A stretch of DNA of 25,201 nt from a virus: positions 1-25,201 of the IMG/VR virus record IMGVR_UViG_3300036851_000553, one strand, 5' to 3'. The position numbers and the translations under genes were made by a program. The notes beneath the pieces are model-generated. The model worked only from the letters and a program-made list of their open reading frames with translations, was not told the DNA's origin and searched no databases. Shown piece after piece: positions 3,958 through 24,873 of the stretch (positions within the stretch are counted from its first letter, which is position 1; each line of letters opens with the position of its first letter).

Positions 3958-4365
3958 TCAGGCGTTCCCGGCGGTGATCGTGAACCCGGTGATGACGACA
4001 TCCTGGCCGGCGGCGAGGACCGCGTTGTCGAGCGTCATGTCGCCGCCGCCGCCGGTCGCCGTCACCGTGCCCTGCAGGTGGCAGGTCGAGCCGCCGCTGT
4101 CATAGATCCGGAAATGCCCCGCCGTACCGGCCGCATCGGCGCTGGTGTCCTCCCAGGTGCCGGATTTGGCCTTGGCGCCGGAAGCGGCCGCCGCCATCCA
4201 GTCGGACGGCAGGGTCAGCGTCGCCAGCACGGTGCCGCTGTCGGCGGCGGCGCAATCGGCCGGCAGCGAGCCGGTGCGGATCTTCAGCACCGGCGCCGTG
4301 CCGATCGCCGTCTCGATCGCGTCGAGCCGCGCATTGCGGACCGTCACGCTTTCCTGAAAGGCCAT
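3958..4365 (-). CDS. Phage structural protein, hypothetical
   Basis: This 135-aa protein opens MAFQESVTVRNARLDAIETA and continues with beta-rich, Gly/Thr-rich sequence (FRIYDSGGSTCHLQGTVTAT). The ATG has a GGAG site 9 bases upstream. Proteins of this type are common in alphaproteobacterial prophages beside head-tail connectors and are usually unnamed. The neighbouring repeat protein begins with the same three residues (MAF), which may be coincidence. A minor virion component is the most that can be inferred. Confidence 0.6.
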   Translation of the reverse strand: MAFQESVTVRNARLDAIETAIGTAPVLKIRTGSLPADCAAADSGTVLATLTLPSDWMAAAASGAKAKSGTWEDTSADAAGTAGHFRIYDSGGSTCHLQGTVTATGGGGDMTLDNAVLAAGQDVVITGFTITAGNA

Positions 4366-13399: not shown

Positions 13400-13588
13400 T
13401 CAGCAGGATCCCCGGGGCACGTCGTCGAGCCGCGGGTCGATCGCCGCCCGGATCGCGATCACCGCCTCGTCGGGATCCCGGAAGGCCCGGCTCGCCCCGT
13501 CGGTCGCCAGTATGTAAAACCCCTGCGCCTCGCGCCAAGAGAGCGCGATATGCGCCGGCTTCGGTGCTTCGGGGACGGTGCCGTTCAT
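13400..13588 (-). CDS. Small hypothetical protein downstream of recombinase
   Basis: This 62-aa protein starts at ATG 13588, overlapping the recombinase stop as ATGA. It has a compact beta-alpha layout (HIALSWREAQGFYILATDGA, then PDEAVIAIRAAIDPR). In-frame sequence further upstream is antisense of the recombinase and was excluded. Translational coupling to the recombinase is likely. The function is unknown. Confidence 0.6.
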   Translation of the reverse strand: MNGTVPEAPKPAHIALSWREAQGFYILATDGASRAFRDPDEAVIAIRAAIDPRLDDVPRGSC

Positions 13589-14307
13589 GCTGCCGTCCTT
13601 TCGGTGCGCGCGAGGATCCGGCGGACCTGTTCGGCCGACCAGGTCGCCTCCCCGCCCGGCGTCTTGATGCCGCGCGCGGTCAGCGCCAGGGCGAGTTGCC
13701 CGAGAGTCGCGCACCCGGCCTTCCGGGCGGCCTCGATGTAGGGGGCGATGTCGAATGCCCGGCGGCTTGCGTTGGCCGATGCCGCCCGCGATGCGTGGCG
13801 GGCCGCGGCCCTTGTGCCGCCGCGCGGGTTCGGATTGCCGAGCTTGACCCCGCGCGCCTTCGCCGCGGCGAGCGCCGCCTTGGTGCGGCTAGAGATCTGC
13901 TCGCGCTCGTGCTCGGCGACGGCGGCGAGGATGTGGATCGTCAGCCTGGTGGCGTGCGGGTTGTCGCAGGCGACGAAATCGACGCCCGACTCCATGAGGC
14001 CCGAGACGAACGAGACGTTGCGCGCCAGCCGGTCAAGCTTGGCGATGACGAGGATGGCGCGGCGGGCCCGGCAGGCCGCGAGGGCCTGGGCGATCTGCGG
14101 CCGGTCGTTGCGCTTGCCGCTTTCGATCTCCTGAAACTCGGCGACCAGCCTGCCGCCGGCGGCGCCGACGTGACGCTCGATCGCCTCCCGCTGGGCCTCC
14201 AGGCCGAGCCCGGAGGCGCCCTGTGCGTCGGTCGATACCCGGACGTAGGAAACGAAGGCCGGAGCGGAAGGCGCGCCAGCGGGCTTCCCTGGGGGCCTGG
14301 CGGGCAT
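13585..14307 (-). CDS. Serine recombinase, resolvase/invertase family
   Basis: This 240-aa protein has a catalytic domain with nucleophile Ser25 in SYVRVSTDAQG, the conserved ESGKRNDRP and KLDRLARN blocks that carry the active-site arginines, and the HIL..VAEHEREQIS helix (the dimer helix region). The C-terminal part (LGQLALALTARGIKT, then WSAEQVRRIL) is a helix-turn-helix DNA-binding domain. It is too short for a large serine integrase, so it is more likely a resolvase or invertase. It sits in the phage gene chain rather than in the transposon. Its site is not visible. Confidence 0.85.
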   Translation of the reverse strand: MPARPPGKPAGAPSAPAFVSYVRVSTDAQGASGLGLEAQREAIERHVGAAGGRLVAEFQEIESGKRNDRPQIAQALAACRARRAILVIAKLDRLARNVSFVSGLMESGVDFVACDNPHATRLTIHILAAVAEHEREQISSRTKAALAAAKARGVKLGNPNPRGGTRAAARHASRAASANASRRAFDIAPYIEAARKAGCATLGQLALALTARGIKTPGGEATWSAEQVRRILARTERTAA

Positions 14308-14338
14308 TCTGACGCCCTCACAAACCCAAACCGAAAAC

Positions 14339-14370
14339 CACGATCCGCGACGTTCGTTTGGCGGATCGTG
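14339..14370 (-). terminator. Rho-independent terminator upstream of the recombinase gene
   Basis: A perfect 10-bp stem (CACGATCCGC / GCGGATCGTG) with a 12-base loop is followed on the minus strand by GTTTTC and further T-rich bases. It lies between the interrupted 66-aa gene and the recombinase start. Confidence 0.6.
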
Positions 14371-14406
14371 AGGAAGCGGCGCAACGCCCCGACGGCCGTG
14401 TGCGCC

Positions 14407-14550
14407 TCAGCCGAAGCCGATGGCGAGGACCGCGCCGATCGCGATCAGCGCCGCCCATTCGGTCGGCAGCAGGCGGCCCTGGTCGCTCGCCTGGCGCTCC
14501 GGCGGCAACGCCGCCTGGCGACGGGCGAGCTCGTAAGGACATGCGCCGGG
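14407..14550 (-). pseudogene. 3' part of the phage gene broken by the transposon
   Basis: The frame reads PGACPYELARRQAALPPE and onward, ending in a hydrophobic helix (EWAALIAIGAVLAIGFG) and TGA at 14409-14407. It has no start of its own. Joined to the fragment at 17612-17676 with one copy of the 8-bp duplication it gives an uninterrupted 66-aa protein. The intact product would be a Cys/His-rich N-terminus and a C-terminal membrane helix. Its function is unknown. Confidence 0.75.
14543..14550. repeat. Left target site duplication (GCGCCGGG)
   Basis: This is identical to 17612-17619. Each copy directly abuts an outer end of the inverted repeats, as expected from a single insertion with 8-bp staggered cuts, the size seen for IS1-family elements. 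Confidence 0.9.
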
Positions 14551-14569
14551 GGTAGTGCGCAGTTTTGAA
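14551..14569. repeat. Left terminal inverted repeat (19 bp)
   Basis: GGTAGTGCGCAGTTTTGAA matches the complement of 17593-17611 at all 19 positions. It ends two bases before the transposase stop. Confidence 0.92.
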
Positions 14570-14571
14570 TT

Positions 14572-15465
14572 TCATGCCGCTTTCGGCTGCCGCGGCTTAT
14601 AAGGGCCGCGCTTTTTCGGGGCTGGCTCCCGCGCATCAATCAGCGCCACGATATCCTCCATCGTCCACAAGCGATCGGCGACCCCGGCAGCCATTGCCGG
14701 TGTCATGCGCAGCGTCTTGTGGATGCGGACGAAGTTGTAGAACACGAAGTAGAGCGCCAACGCATGGCAGTGGTTCTCAACGCGCTTGCTGAACGCGTTA
14801 GTCAGCCGCGTAAACCGACGCATCCCCATGCGGATCGTCAGGTTGTGCCGCTCCACGTAGGACGTGCTGACGTGCTTCGGATCAGGCTTGCCGGTGATTG
14901 TTGTCGGCCGCGCGCCGACGCATTCGGTCGGGCTGTAGCGCCTAGCCGCGTCTGAGGCGGCCGGCGGAGCGCCGTACATTTTCACGAGCTGCGCGTAATC
15001 AACGTCGGCGCCGAACGCTTCCTCGACGGCTTGCAAATAGGCACTGTGCCCGTCCGTGGTGAGTTGCAAGCGGGTCGTGACTCGCTGGCGCAAATCGTCC
15101 ATGAGCGCCAAAGCGTATTCCGCGTCCCGGCCGCCGACCTGCCACGTCAGGATCAGCTTGTTATCGGCATCGAGCGCCGTCCAAGTCCAGATATCGCCAG
15201 CGCCCTGCGGCGCGGCCTTGGCTCTCGGGACGTTCTTTGCCTTGGCATGTACGAAGCTCCAAATCTCGTCGCACTGGACGCGGCGACTTGCGACGCCGCG
15301 CATGGTGCGATCGTGGAACTCGGTGCATGCGGTGCCTGCATCTTTGAGCAGTTTGTCGATTGCCGGAAAGGAGACATCGGCTACGCGGGCTATCGCTCGC
15401 ATGGCCGAGCCTTCGCAAAGCATCGAGAGGACTTGGACGCGCTTGGCGAGAGGGAGCTTATTCAT
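14572..15465 (-). CDS. DDE transposase, IS1-family-like
   Basis: This 297-aa protein starts at ATG 15465 ([19 protein letters not shown]). An N-terminal HTH ([20 protein letters not shown]) is followed by an RNaseH-fold catalytic domain. Candidate catalytic acids are the D in [11 protein letters not shown], the D in [10 protein letters not shown] and the E in [13 protein letters not shown]. The conserved [13 protein letters not shown] and [20 protein letters not shown] blocks and a basic tail follow. This is the family usually annotated as IS1-type in rhizobial genomes. It lacks the N-terminal Cys finger of E. coli InsA and needs no frameshift. Its stop is 2 bases inside the left inverted repeat. 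It looks intact. Confidence 0.88.
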
Positions 15466-15472
15466 AACGAAC

Positions 15473-15501
15473 ATAATACGAAAGCGCTCCCGCATCGTCA
15501 A
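15473..15501 (-). promoter_or_regulatory. Sigma70-type promoter of the transposase, giving a leaderless mRNA
   Basis: TTGACG (15501-15496), a 17-base spacer and TATTAT (15478-15473) are followed by only 7 bases before the ATG at 15465. Transcription would start at or very near the ATG, and no Shine-Dalgarno site exists. Weak leaderless translation would keep transposition low. Confidence 0.65.
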
Positions 15502-15588
15502 CCGAATTTGCAAACCATCATGCAATTTTTCCGTTGAGAATGCAAAAACAATGTGGCACGCTGCCGCTCAACATCGATCGGAGTGGTG

Positions 15589-16185
15589 ATGCCCGTTCCT
15601 CGCCTGGACGACGTAAGACAGATCCTTGAGCCGCGCGAAGAAGCGATCGGCACGATTGTGCTCAACGCGTGGGATCGTTGGTGGAACAACTCAGAGCGGC
15701 TCGCCCTTTCGTTCCGGCGTACCAGAGCGACGCTAGTCCATCAATACATGATGAACCTGGCGGTGCCGGCATTCGACGGGGATCGTGGTATCCGACCAAT
15801 CGAGCGACACGAGACCATCTTCTTTGTCGCCGATCAAAAGCTGATTTTCCGGTTCAAAAAAGGCGATGACATCGGCCTTAGCAGCAATATCGAAACGCAA
15901 TTCGCGCTGGCATTTAACGACCCGCAACAAACGTTGCCGGAGCTGCCAGATGTTGCCCGCGTCGATATCGCGTATGTCTTAAATCCGTTTGAAACCCTGA
16001 TTAATCGGGTCTTGGTTGTTGCTCGTGACGGCGATCGAGTGGTCTGGTCTTATACGATCTTTCCGCAGCCCGAGGCTTTTACCCTTCCCATCCCGCTCCC
16101 TGTTCGACCGTCCCCTCCAGCCCCGCCGGACAACGTGGTGCGGCTGCCGCCGGTCAACAACAAAAAGGAGGAAAAGAGCGAATAG
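15589..16185 (+). CDS. Transposon passenger of unknown function, partner of the ImmA/IrrE gene
   Basis: This 198-aa protein starts at ATG 15589, with GGAG 5 bases upstream; an earlier GTG (15553) lacks a ribosome site. Residues about 10-40 are helical (NAWDRWWNNSERLALSF), followed by a beta-rich core (RHETIFFVADQKLIFRFKKG, then VDIAYVLNPFETLINRVLVV and GDRVVWSYTIFP). The last ~40 residues are Pro-rich and then Lys/Glu-rich, so disordered. No signal peptide or membrane helix is present. It lies 15 bases before the peptidase gene, so the two form an operon. Pairs of this kind suggest toxin-antitoxin or defence modules with this protein as the effector. No catalytic motif was recognised, and that role is inference. 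Confidence 0.75.
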   Translation: MPVPRLDDVRQILEPREEAIGTIVLNAWDRWWNNSERLALSFRRTRATLVHQYMMNLAVPAFDGDRGIRPIERHETIFFVADQKLIFRFKKGDDIGLSSNIETQFALAFNDPQQTLPELPDVARVDIAYVLNPFETLINRVLVVARDGDRVVWSYTIFPQPEAFTLPIPLPVRPSPPAPPDNVVRLPPVNNKKEEKSE

Positions 16186-16200
16186 CGGGAGACAGTCGCA

Positions 16201-17283
16201 ATGGCATTCAATGGCGAGCTGCTCCGATTGGGGCGGCAATACCGGGGATTCTCGCAACGCGAATTTGCCGGCAAGATGCAGATCGAGCCGTCAGCGGCGT
16301 CGCGCATCGAAAACAATGTAACCGCGGCGCCCGAAGGTTTCGTTGAGCGCGCCGCCGCTCTATTGCATTTCCCCGAGAGGTTCTTTGATCAACCCGACCG
16401 AATTTATGGGTTGCCGCTCAGCGTGCATCCATCCATGTGGCGCAAAAAAGCAGCCGTGCCGCAGCGGGATATCGACCGCGCGCTGGCCGGCGTCAATATC
16501 ATGATGATGCACCTACGGCGGCTGATCCGCGCTGTCGAGTACAAGCCGGCGATCCCCTTGCCAAAGATCGATGTCGAAGCCCATCGCGGCGACATCGAAG
16601 CCATCGCGCTCTTGGTGCGCCGCACCTGGATGATGCCGGCCGGCCCAATTGCTGACCTGACGGCTTGGATAGAGCGCGCCGGGTGCTTCGTGATCCATGT
16701 TGATTTGCCAGACGCCGCGATGGATGGCGTTACGCTGCGTACACCGGATACGCCACCCTGCATCTTTCTGAACCGAAGAGCGCCCGCAGATCGCATGCGC
16801 TTCTCGCTGGCGCACGAGTTGGCGCATCTCATCATGCACGATGTTCCGACTCCGAACATGGAGCAGGAAGCCAATGCGTTTGCCGGCGCTTTTCAAGCAC
16901 CGGCGAACGACATTCGACCGTACTTCGCCCGGCGCCGTCGGGTTGACCTTCCGCTGCTTGCCAGCCTGAAGCCGGAGTGGCGCATGGCGATGGCGGCCCT
17001 ACTGTATCGCTCAAAGCAGCTCGGCTTTGTAGACGACAATCAGGCGCGCTATCTGTGGCAGAAGTTCAACATGCACAAGATCAGATTACGCGAGCCGCCT
17101 GAATTGGACTTCCCCGCAGAACAACCAGAACTGTTGGCCCGGCTTATCGGGTTGCACCTAGATGATCTAGGATATTCGCTTGATGAATTGGCGGATTTGC
17201 TAGTGATCTATACGGATGAAATGGTGAACCTCTACGAAATAAACGTGCCGAAAGGCAGACCGCAGTTACGACTTGTCCCGTAA
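16201..17283 (+). CDS. XRE-HTH plus ImmA/IrrE (COG2856) zinc peptidase, transposon passenger
   Basis: This 360-aa protein has an N-terminal XRE helix-turn-helix (RLGRQYRGFSQREFAGKMQI and SAASRIENN, residues 9-39). The peptidase domain has the zinc motif HELAH (205-209) and a downstream Glu in MEQEANAFAGAFQAP (220-234) as third ligand, so it appears catalytically intact. A C-terminal helical region (YRSKQLGFVDDNQARYLWQK) is typical of long COG2856 regulators. ImmA cleaves an ICE repressor and IrrE/DdrO-type peptidases relieve repression, and many fused XRE-COG2856 proteins are antitoxins. A GGGAG site lies upstream. It overlaps the convergent 83-aa gene by 18 bases. Confidence 0.9.
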   Translation: MAFNGELLRLGRQYRGFSQREFAGKMQIEPSAASRIENNVTAAPEGFVERAAALLHFPERFFDQPDRIYGLPLSVHPSMWRKKAAVPQRDIDRALAGVNIMMMHLRRLIRAVEYKPAIPLPKIDVEAHRGDIEAIALLVRRTWMMPAGPIADLTAWIERAGCFVIHVDLPDAAMDGVTLRTPDTPPCIFLNRRAPADRMRFSLAHELAHLIMHDVPTPNMEQEANAFAGAFQAPANDIRPYFARRRRVDLPLLASLKPEWRMAMAALLYRSKQLGFVDDNQARYLWQKFNMHKIRLREPPELDFPAEQPELLARLIGLHLDDLGYSLDELADLLVIYTDEMVNLYEINVPKGRPQLRLVP

Positions 17284-22815: not shown

Positions 22816-22946
22816 GCGGCCTTGGTATCGGGCGGGTAGATGTCCGGTCTCAGCTGATGGCGATTTATGCGGGCAGAAATCAGCGCCTCAAGCTGAAGGA
22901 CGCGCTCGGCCAGGGTCGGCTCGCCGGCGACGGCGGGCGGCATCAT
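22812..22946 (-). CDS. Small hypothetical protein of the Cro operon
   Basis: This 44-aa protein starts at ATG 22946, overlapping the Cro-like stop as ATGA (22946-22943). It is a single amphipathic helix (EPTLAERVLQLEALISARIN) plus a short tail. Its start region is nearly identical to that of the next gene, a small duplicated junction. The function is unknown. Confidence 0.55.
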   Translation of the reverse strand: MMPPAVAGEPTLAERVLQLEALISARINRHQLRPDIYPPDTKAA

Positions 22947-23182
22947 GCGGCCTCGCCAGAAGCGCGGCGCGCAGCATAGAGACGCGCCAGAAGTTCGTGT
23001 GTGATGCCAGTCAAACCGGCCTCGCGCGCGCCCCGCACCACCGCGTCCCAATGTGCCGGCGGTATCGCATCGCGCGTCTTCATCGCGCTCGCTGTGCCGA
23101 TCGGCTTGCCAATGACAGTGCCGAAGGCGGCCGACCCTCCGAAGGCATCGATGATCGCCGAGAACGTCGGATATTCATCCAT
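22943..23182 (-). CDS. Cro-like regulator, carph-isopro-type HTH
   Basis: This 79-aa protein has the pattern AFGGSAAFGTVIGKPIGTAS, then IPPAHWDAVVRGAREAGLTG, the layout of small phage Cro/YdaS-like proteins (carph-isopro domain) with an HTH at residues about 14-45. It is divergent from the repressor gene and separated from it by three operators, the classic switch arrangement. The ATG lacks a ribosome site and lies about 10 bases after the candidate -10, so it may be leaderless. It probably represses the repressor gene. Confidence 0.8.
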   Translation of the reverse strand: MDEYPTFSAIIDAFGGSAAFGTVIGKPIGTASAMKTRDAIPPAHWDAVVRGAREAGLTGITHELLARLYAARRASGEAA

Positions 23183-23192
23183 TTCGCGTCAA

Positions 23193-23221
23193 AGTCTGCT
23201 TTTTGCAGATCGCGGAGTCAA
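23193..23221 (-). promoter_or_regulatory. Promoter of the Cro-like operon
   Basis: TTGACT (23221-23216), a 17-base spacer and CAGACT (23198-23193) are present. Operator O1 (23196-23208) lies between the -35 and the -10 and covers part of the -10, so bound repressor would block it. Confidence 0.5.
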
Positions 23222-23265
23222 GGCCTGTGGCTGCAACATGCAGATTTCTTCCCTGCATAATGCAG
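23196..23265. promoter_or_regulatory. Three repressor operators (CTGCA-N3-TGCAG type)
   Basis: O1 CTGCTTTTTGCAG is at 23196-23208, O2 CTGCAACATGCAG at 23231-23243 and O3 CTGCATAATGCAG at 23253-23265. All share CTGC-N5-GCAG. O3 covers CATAAT (23256-23261), a near-perfect -10 for the plus-strand repressor gene, which would make that mRNA leaderless. The arrangement allows graded control, as in lambda OR. Confidence 0.85.
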
Positions 23266-23267
23266 AA

Positions 23268-23636
23268 ATGGAACGGCACGAAAGGCTGAAGCTGGCGCGG
23301 AAGAAGCGTTTCCCCACTGCGAAGGCGGCCGCGGGCTACCTGCGGATGTCGTATAGCACTCTGTGCCATCACGAGGCGGGTACCCGGCAACCGAAGGACG
23401 ACGAGCTGGCGGCATACGCATCGGCGTACCGTGTCAAACTGGTGTGGCTCGATCACGGCGAGGAAAATCTGTCCCCTCGCGAGGCGCAGCTGCTTGAGGG
23501 CTTCCGGGCGCTCTCCGCCGACGTTCAGAATTTTCTGCTCGCGTCCGTTGGGGGCGAAGTTCCCCGACCAACTGACGTACCCCCAGCCGAGCCAGCCCCC
23601 TCGCCCCCGGCAAGCCGCCAAAAAGGGGGGCGGTGA
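23268..23636 (+). CDS. Phage repressor (CI-like), short, no cleavage domain
   Basis: This 122-aa protein has an N-terminal XRE-type HTH (FPTAKAAAGYLRMSYSTLCH, then HEAGTRQPKDDELAAYASAY, residues 15-54) and a short helical C-terminal part ending in Pro-rich sequence. ATG 23268 is 6 bases after the -10, so a leaderless start like lambda cI from PRM is likely. An upstream ATG (23238) has no -10 or Shine-Dalgarno site. There is no S24/LexA peptidase domain, so induction must use another route, such as the Cro-like protein or an antirepressor. Operators in front of this gene and near 24.3 kb are its probable targets. Confidence 0.8.
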   Translation: MERHERLKLARKKRFPTAKAAAGYLRMSYSTLCHHEAGTRQPKDDELAAYASAYRVKLVWLDHGEENLSPREAQLLEGFRALSADVQNFLLASVGGEVPRPTDVPPAEPAPSPPASRQKGGR

Positions 23637-23684
23637 TCCTTCAATTTCGCCTCAAACACCGGCCAAGGCCATGAGAGGCTGACG

Positions 23685-24065
23685 ATGGCGCGGTCCAAAC
23701 CGCCGACCGCCGACGATGTGCCGCAACTTCTGGAGCGGCTTTGCCGGAGCGCCGAGGGGATAGAACGGCAGCTTGCCCAAATCGCCGAGCGGATCGAGCC
23801 GTTCGATCCGGCCGACGCCAGAACCAAAGCGGCAGCGCGCGAGCCTTCGCCGCAAAGCATGCAGGAAGCCAGCGGCGCAATCCCACGTCGCCGGCAGGAT
23901 GATCGCGCCGACCCTATCGTCCAGGTCGTGCGCAGCGTGAACGACAAGCTCTATTTGTTGGAAATCCACGCAAACGCGATCAGAATCCGGTTTGCCGAAA
24001 TCGCCGGTGACCCGCAATTGAGCGGGCGGCTCAGGCCGTATCTGCGGAACCCGCATCGGCGCTGA
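23685..24065 (+). CDS. Hypothetical protein downstream of the repressor
   Basis: This 126-aa protein has AGAGG ahead of ATG 23685. It has an N-terminal helix (DDVPQLLERLCRSAEGIERQ), a charged middle and a second helix (DKLYLLEIHANAIRIRFAEI). It is probably cotranscribed with the repressor and overlaps the convergent 74-aa gene by 35 bases. The function is unknown. Confidence 0.55.
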   Translation: MARSKPPTADDVPQLLERLCRSAEGIERQLAQIAERIEPFDPADARTKAAAREPSPQSMQEASGAIPRRRQDDRADPIVQVVRSVNDKLYLLEIHANAIRIRFAEIAGDPQLSGRLRPYLRNPHRR

Positions 24066-24255
24066 GAATGCGGCTCAACGCATCTTTGAGGCAGGCCGCG
24101 TCCTCTCGCGTTAACGCGACCCGCATGCCGGCCGCCTCTCGGGAGCGGCCGAAGATGCTCACCATAACCGCCAGAGACGAACCGGATAGCGGATCGAGCA
24201 CGATCTCGACTTCCTGCCCGATGATCGTCAGCACCTCTCGCTCATAAAGCCCCAT
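24031..24255 (-). CDS. Hypothetical protein under operator control
   Basis: This 74-aa protein has a strong AGGAGG ahead of ATG 24255. The N-terminal half is beta-rich (REVLTIIGQEVEIVLDPLSG) and the C-terminal half helical (TREDAACLKDALSRILSADA). It faces the divergent promoter with operators O4 and O5 and should be repressor-controlled. The function is unknown. Confidence 0.65.
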   Translation of the reverse strand: MGLYEREVLTIIGQEVEIVLDPLSGSSLAVMVSIFGRSREAAGMRVALTREDAACLKDALSRILSADAGSADTA

Positions 24256-24279
24256 CGCTCGCCTCCTGCTTCGGCTCGC

Positions 24280-24337
24280 AGTGTAGCATGCAATTCTGCA
24301 AATTGCAGTTGACTATCTCTGCAATGTGCAGAACTAT
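24280..24337. promoter_or_regulatory. Second divergent promoter with two more repressor operators
   Basis: O4 CTGCAAATTGCAG is at 24296-24308 and O5 CTGCAATGTGCAG at 24319-24331. On the plus strand TTGACT (24309-24314), a 17-base spacer that ends with O5, and AACTAT (24332-24337) form a promoter. On the minus strand CTGCAA (24308-24303), 17 bases and TACACT (24285-24280) form another whose -35 lies in O4. One repressor can silence both directions. Confidence 0.75.
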
Positions 24338-24366: not shown

Positions 24367-24873
24367 ATGCCCGCTTCCCGTCCCACTCCCGGAAAACCCC
24401 CGCCCACCGTCGCGGAGGCGCTGGCCGCCAAGCTCGCCCGCCTCGAGTGGCTGCACGCCGACAACCAGGCCGACCGGTTCCCGTCGTTCGCCGCCCGCCT
24501 ACGCCGCGGTGAAGCCGGCGAAGCCGCGGATCAGGTGCTCGGCACGGCGCTCGGTCTGCGCGTCGACCAGCGTCTGCTGCGACAGCTTGTCGAGGGTTTC
24601 CAGCGCGCGCTGCGTCTGGCCGGCCTTGATCGGCGGCAGCGTGTAGTAGTGCGGCATGATCTGGCCGCGGCGGGGAATTTCGAGGGTCAGGCTGACCGCG
24701 CGCTCGCCGGCCCGGAGGCGCTGAACGGCGGCGAGAATTTCCTCGGCCGGCCCTTCGATCGTGACGGTTGCGGTAATCGTGGCCGCCGGCTCCCGGGTCG
24801 CGTCCATGTCGCCCCGCCTGTCGCTCTGTCGCCGCGCCGGTATAGCACGCCGCCGGTCCAGCCGGAGTACTGA
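24367..24873 (+). CDS. Hypothetical protein under operator control (3' part doubtful)
   Basis: This 168-aa frame has GGAGG 6 bases before ATG 24367. Residues 1-45 look real (TVAEALAAKLARLEWLHADN). From about residue 46 it is antisense to the 102-aa minus gene, is Arg/Gly-rich and looks non-coding, although the stop (24871-24873) is 1 base before the next plus-strand ATG. The true gene may be truncated or fused by mosaic recombination. The function is unknown. Confidence 0.45.
   Translation: MPASRPTPGKPPPTVAEALAAKLARLEWLHADNQADRFPSFAARLRRGEAGEAADQVLGTALGLRVDQRLLRQLVEGFQRALRLAGLDRRQRVVVRHDLAAAGNFEGQADRALAGPEALNGGENFLGRPFDRDGCGNRGRRLPGRVHVAPPVALSPRRYSTPPVQPEY
24499..24807 (-). CDS. Hypothetical phage protein
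   Basis: This 102-aa protein starts at ATG 24807. It has a beta-rich N-terminal half (AATITATVTIEGPAEEILAA, then AVSLTLEIPRR) and a helical C-terminal half (RALETLDKLSQQTLVDAQTE). Its codon pattern is more protein-like than the opposing frame. In-frame sequence upstream of 24807 is Ser/Arg-rich and excluded. The function is unknown. Confidence 0.55.
   Translation of the reverse strand: MDATREPAATITATVTIEGPAEEILAAVQRLRAGERAVSLTLEIPRRGQIMPHYYTLPPIKAGQTQRALETLDKLSQQTLVDAQTERRAEHLIRGFAGFTAA

Follow-up and report, generated by a model that had tools for sequence, protein, structure and literature searches.

A lambda-type operator arrangement built on one repeated palindrome in a predicted alphaproteobacterial phage immunity region

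Introduction

The window analysed here, a stretch of viral DNA of 25,201 nucleotides, holds several copies of one short palindrome near a repressor gene and a small Cro-like gene. The question raised by this locus is whether these copies are the operators of a phage switch and, if so, of what kind. The initial annotation had read them as a phage repressor regulon, and this reading is supported here by the conservation of the operators in relatives and by the repressor- and Cro-type families to which the two genes belong. On sequence grounds the locus is very probably the immunity region of a temperate alphaproteobacterial phage with a lambda-type bipartite OR/OL switch, and the host group is probably the Hyphomicrobiales. 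The switch is a further example of the known lambda-type kind and not a new kind of system.

Layout of the operators and predicted promoters

A divergent helix-turn-helix (HTH) repressor gene and a small Cro gene were found to flank a common intergenic operator region. The same operator is repeated between these two genes and is present again at a second early promoter past the repressor gene. The features of the region are given below, with operator centres counted from the repressor ATG.

22943-23182, minus strand: Cro-like protein, 79 aa, carph-isopro type HTH
23193-23221, minus strand: Pcro (predicted), -35 TTGACT 23221-23216, 17-nt spacer, -10 CAGACT 23198-23193
23196-23208: O1, CTGCTTTTTGCAG, in the spacer and -10 of Pcro; centre -66, a position that recurs in relatives
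23231-23243: O2, CTGCAACATGCAG, over the predicted repressor-promoter -35; centre -31
23253-23265: O3, CTGCATAATGCAG, holding the predicted repressor-promoter -10 CATAAT (23256-23261); centre -9
23268-23636, plus strand: CI-like repressor of 122 aa; XRE HTH domain at the N terminus, a helix at the C terminus
23685-24065, plus strand: 126-aa open reading frame (ORF), of no known family, in the interval from the repressor to the distal operators
24031-24255, minus strand: 74-aa leftward ORF beginning beside O4, of no family; an ORF only
24296-24308: O4, CTGCAAATTGCAG, directly next to TTGACT, the -35 of the PL-like distal promoter; relatives show O4 and TTGAC in the same arrangement
24309-24337, plus strand: PL-like promoter (predicted), -35 TTGACT 24309-24314, 17-nt spacer 24315-24331, -10 AACTAT 24332-24337
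24319-24331: O5, CTGCAATGTGCAG, filling the spacer of the PL-like promoter

O1-O3, in the gap from which the repressor and cro genes diverge, would form OR. O4-O5 would form OL at an early promoter that reads rightward and lies beyond the repressor gene, 1.1 kb from OR. The 74-aa ORF may belong to a transcript that starts divergently in the OL region.

Both Pcro and PL were placed by eye on the sequence. This placement agrees with the earlier proposal that O5 occupies the spacer of a TTGACT promoter and O1 that of the Cro promoter, with the addition that O1 also enters the -10 element. A strict sigma-70 scan gave no promoter-like site at its threshold, and the predicted promoters therefore rest on their conservation in relatives and not on a consensus score. 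The geometry of the PL -35 and its operators was found to be conserved in relatives, and that of Pcro, judged by eye, recurs upstream. O1 and O2 are 35 bp apart, and the spacing of O4 and O5 is 23 bp in the window as against 25-26 bp in relatives. Since a gap of only six nucleotides separates the -10-like CATAAT in O3 from the repressor ATG, the repressor is probably translated from a leaderless message. A terminator-like match at O2 turned out to be the operator palindrome itself, and such matches are no commoner than in shuffled sequences.

Directly downstream of the PL-like promoter we noticed two overlapping ORFs on opposite strands, 24367-24873 (plus) and 24499-24810 (minus). The 3' part of the former reads like the antisense of the latter, so that gene calling at 24367-24873 is uncertain.

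Enrichment of the palindrome

Six exact matches to CTGC-N5-GCAG were found by a pattern scan of the window, where 0.79 +/- 0.83 are expected and at most three occurred in 100 shuffles; the initial annotation had estimated about one chance match per 25 kb. Five of the six lie inside two intergenic gaps of 85 and 111 bp (196 bp in total) and the sixth lies outside both, at 4072-4084. The placing of three copies between the repressor and Cro genes and two about 1.1 kb off was confirmed, with correct coordinates and exact matches. The longer palindrome CTGCA-N3-TGCAG, previously said to fit four copies, is matched exactly by O2-O5 and with one mismatch by O1. A strict pattern requiring two operators at a single spacing had no match in the window because the operator spacings differ.

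A short palindrome could gather by chance in comparatively A+T-rich gaps, and the two gaps do have a G+C content of 53% against 68% for the window. For this reason the gaps were shuffled locally with their dinucleotides preserved. Never more than two CTGC-N5-GCAG matches fell in the gaps across 20,000 such shuffles. Even when any 4-mer inverted repeat with a spacer of 0-11 was counted, 2,000 shuffles gave at most three copies compared with the five observed. As both the copies and their spacings are also kept in diverged relatives (below), chance clustering is considered extremely improbable.

The repressor and the Cro-like protein

The 122-aa protein is a HTH repressor of the P22 c2/ImmR type. 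It gave weak matches to XRE helix-turn-helix families, and to HTH families only, and it also matches phage repressor families (PHROGs). A six-sequence profile of the HTH domain retrieved ImmR of ICEBs1 in the PDB (7t8i, 3.8e-6), and the predicted structure (pLDDT 84) was found to be closest to ImmR, the P22 c2 repressor and DdrO.

No S24 self-cleavage domain was detected by family search in the window repressor. S24 matches, scored in relatives at E <= 0.01, were observed in the repressors of seven related loci (L001, L002, L005, L008, L013, L014 and L021) and not in those of L004 (123 aa), L006 and L043. Because the S24 domain found in most relatives was not detected in the window repressor, lambda-type RecA-dependent induction by self-cleavage is unlikely in this phage.

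The 79-aa protein matches carph-isopro (NF046037) with 30.3 bits and an E-value of 3.6e-7, which is below the curated cut-off of 38 bits. All 17 aligned relatives match this family at E <= 0.01 (best 2.6e-16), and a literature search on 'carph-isopro' gave no match. The best PDB match of the Cro profile was P22 Cro (E 0.018). In Foldseek the nearest PDB structures to the predicted model (pLDDT 92.5) were N15 Cro and Xfaso 1 Cro; the top eight matches were to these two and to the Cro hybrid XPH1, with probabilities of 0.95-1.00 and weak E-values of 0.05-0.3 (best 0.047). On the model, and at these weak E-values, the 79-aa protein has its closest structural neighbours among Cro proteins.

Other genes of the window

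The leftward genes of the window include a GpA-type terminase large subunit and an S49 peptidase. At 15553-17283 we noticed an ORF of 210 aa, without a known family, and after it a HTH protein with an M78 peptidase domain (16201-17283), which matches RmrA models (best 1.3e-47) and also the spr1629 repressor/antitoxin family. This pair resembles a toxin-antitoxin or defence module borne by the phage. Beside it, at 13585-15525, a serine resolvase/invertase-type gene adjoins an IS1-type transposase, and this segment may be inserted cargo. The M78 protein was considered as a protease of the repressor; that candidacy is weakened, since the eight related records all lack such a protein and the one in the window finds its best matches in RmrA models, and the HTH-M78 protein looks like a separate cargo module.

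Conservation of the operators in relatives

Relatives were collected by repressor and Cro protein searches without reference to the operator, keeping loci that combine a homologue of the repressor with a Cro near the group of the window. Besides the window, 11 such loci were found: eight viral contigs (L001, L002, L004, L005, L006, L021, L042 and L043) and three Hyphomicrobiales genomes (L008 Lichenifustis, L013 Boseaceae and L014 Microvirga). Five of the contigs (L001, L002, L004, L005 and L006) had been seen first in other searches and were recovered again by this operator-blind one. In 11 of 11 loci, the roughly 100 bp before the repressor start contain at least one exact CTGC-N5-GCAG. The operator centres are typically at -66, -31 and -9 from the repressor ATG, with some copies degenerate:

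Window: -66/-31/-9
L001 and L014: -66/-31/-9
L008: -66/-9
L043: -66/-31
L013: -65/-31/-9
L004: -67/-32
L006: -64/-30/-9

The start codon is shifted or uncertain in L002, L005, L021 and L042, where the distance from first to last site is still 56-57 bp. In L001, L002, L005, L013 and L042 the O2 position holds a conserved imperfect form near CTCAGAYTTGCAG in which one half-site is kept, and this form is possibly a selected weak operator.

The distal unit of operator, TTGAC and operator was found in 10 of the 11 loci when degenerate or single copies are counted. It is exact in six (L001, L002, L004, L005, L006 and L013) and has one degenerate operator in L014, L042 and L021, while L008 has a single operator downstream of TTGAC; in L043 the distal unit was not found. 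A protein search of named phages returned one weak relative, Ruegeria phage 45A6, which has no such palindrome near its repressor.

The search was also run in the other direction. The PL DNA pattern alone led to seven distinct loci, all of them with repressor, Cro and OR operators. Five are viral contigs with a repressor homologue and OR operators, four of which gave a Cro in a search with the window protein; the Cro of the fifth, L006, was found by translation and comparison with the other members. Among 675 genomes taken from the order to which L014 belongs and from the family of L013, the pattern was found in two (L046 and L047), and a reversed control pattern had no match in the same set. 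L047 is the Boseaceae locus L013 again, whereas L046 is newly found and carries a repressor, a Cro and a pair of OR operators spaced by 57 bp. The regulon reading had been made to depend on the palindrome being conserved in relatives, and conservation was observed from protein to operator and from operator to protein alike.

The same searches bear on the idea that the palindrome is a host-regulator site or host-type box and not a phage operator. Palindromic boxes at divergent promoters are common across bacteria, which lends this idea some general plausibility. However, in the whole viral records L001 and L006 (53.0 and 52.6 kb) all four palindrome copies are at OR/OL, and both genomic matches to the PL pattern stand beside this repressor/Cro pair. 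The palindrome is also unlike the alphaproteobacterial LexA box, GTTC-N7-GTTC. A host box is therefore judged very unlikely.

Relatives with other palindromes or none

Upstream of the repressor, CTGC-N5-GCAG is missing from the other repressor homologues, some twenty in number. Distant homologues were instead observed to carry other 15-bp N5 palindromes near -56 or -66, -31 and -10:

L034: AATAC-N5-GTATT at -56 and -31
L031: TATGC-N5-GCATA at -56
L023 and L024: GTAGG-N5-CCTAC at -66 and -17
L029, L030 and L015: TATG-type sites at -56, -31 and -10

This series should be read as a pattern, short of a formal test, as the numbers are small and some loci are near-duplicates. The first site at -56 in several of them is about one helical turn closer than the -66 of the CTGC group. 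Changed palindromes at similar positions would be expected of heteroimmune phages that share one architecture. More tentatively, the operator family may form a single specificity class within a broader heteroimmunity group of alphaproteobacterial phages in which the register is kept and the half-sites change, with the S24-less members (the window and L004) induced in another way, for example by an antirepressor or by a metallopeptidase, the window having an HTH-M78 protein.

The presence and absence of the palindrome also bear on which protein reads it. Only one of the two might do so, for example Cro, with the repressor using another sequence or complex. The repressors of L009-L012 are 66-72% identical to that of L001 in the HTH domain, yet these loci have no CTGC palindrome upstream of the repressor and no detected carph-isopro Cro, so repressor relatedness alone does not explain the palindrome, which goes with the pair of repressor and carph-isopro Cro. 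It does not follow Cro alone either, since L018, L025, L035, L044 and L045, with a more distant carph-isopro Cro, are also without it. An attempt to assign operator choice to the repressor or to Cro by co-variation failed, as neither alone explains presence and absence. Further points against a single reader are the fixed distances of O2 and O3 from the repressor start codon and the other palindromes found near the same places in L015, L030 and L034, which have no recognised carph-isopro Cro. In addition, the footprints of both proteins overlap in CP-933P (PMC8630535). We consider a one-protein operator improbable, and by analogy with lambda and CP-933P both the repressor and Cro are expected to read the palindrome.

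Proposed mechanism

In a lysogen, the 122-aa repressor would bind, presumably as dimers, to sites of the TCTGC-N5-GCAGA type, closing Pcro through O1 and PL through O4 and O5. It would limit its own synthesis through O2 and O3, two sites that overlie the predicted repressor promoter. Once the phage infects or is induced, the Cro-like protein would be expected to occupy the operators used by the repressor and turn off the promoter of the repressor gene. A DNA loop joining OR and OL across the 1.1 kb is plausible.

Lambda OR2 is centred at about -42, and repressor bound there activates its own promoter. Such activation from O2 is not expected here, because O2, with its centre at -31 relative to the predicted start, lies over the -35 and not at about -42.

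Comparison with known switches

The arrangement resembles that of lambda in the divergent repressor and cro genes, the three operators between them, the second set at the early promoter beyond the repressor, the overlap of operators with promoters and the likely leaderless repressor message. It differs in that the operators are 13-15 bp and of another sequence, whereas those of lambda are about 17 bp; O1 and O2 are 35 bp apart; O2 lies over the repressor -35 and not just upstream of it; OL has two sites and not three; and no S24 domain was detected in the repressor.

In CP-933P, a cryptic prophage of E. coli O157:H7, the repressor PaaR2 and the Cro-like YdaS bind over both promoters, and the PaaR2 message has been shown to be leaderless, as in lambda (PMC8630535). 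The leaderless repressor, the divergent Cro-like gene and a further PL-type site are shared with the predicted layout here, a likeness at the level of anatomy. CP-933P differs in its 18-bp palindromes, with the consensus GTTTAGTAA, and in its embedded toxin-antitoxin genes (PMC8630535). The Rac prophage of E. coli likewise has three palindromic repeats between the repressor gene racR and the Cro-like ydaS, and three RacR-DNA complexes are seen in EMSA; its repeats are GCCTAA/TTAGGC, and the parts of the source consulted describe no second operator site (PMC5700373).

The HTH of the window repressor is most like that of ImmR from ICEBs1 of Bacillus subtilis by both profile and structure. ImmR and Deinococcus DdrO are, as here, short repressors without an S24 domain. 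Both are inactivated by an M78 metallopeptidase partner, for which the HTH-M78 protein of the window is only a putative and weakened counterpart.

Implications

To our knowledge, few phage switches have been worked out in the Hyphomicrobiales, and this locus provides a defined set of operator, repressor and Cro for phages of these hosts. The similar operator register with changed half-sites forms a natural data set for the specificity of HTH proteins for their operators. Furthermore, the promoter pattern is specific enough for detecting prophages of the same immunity class.
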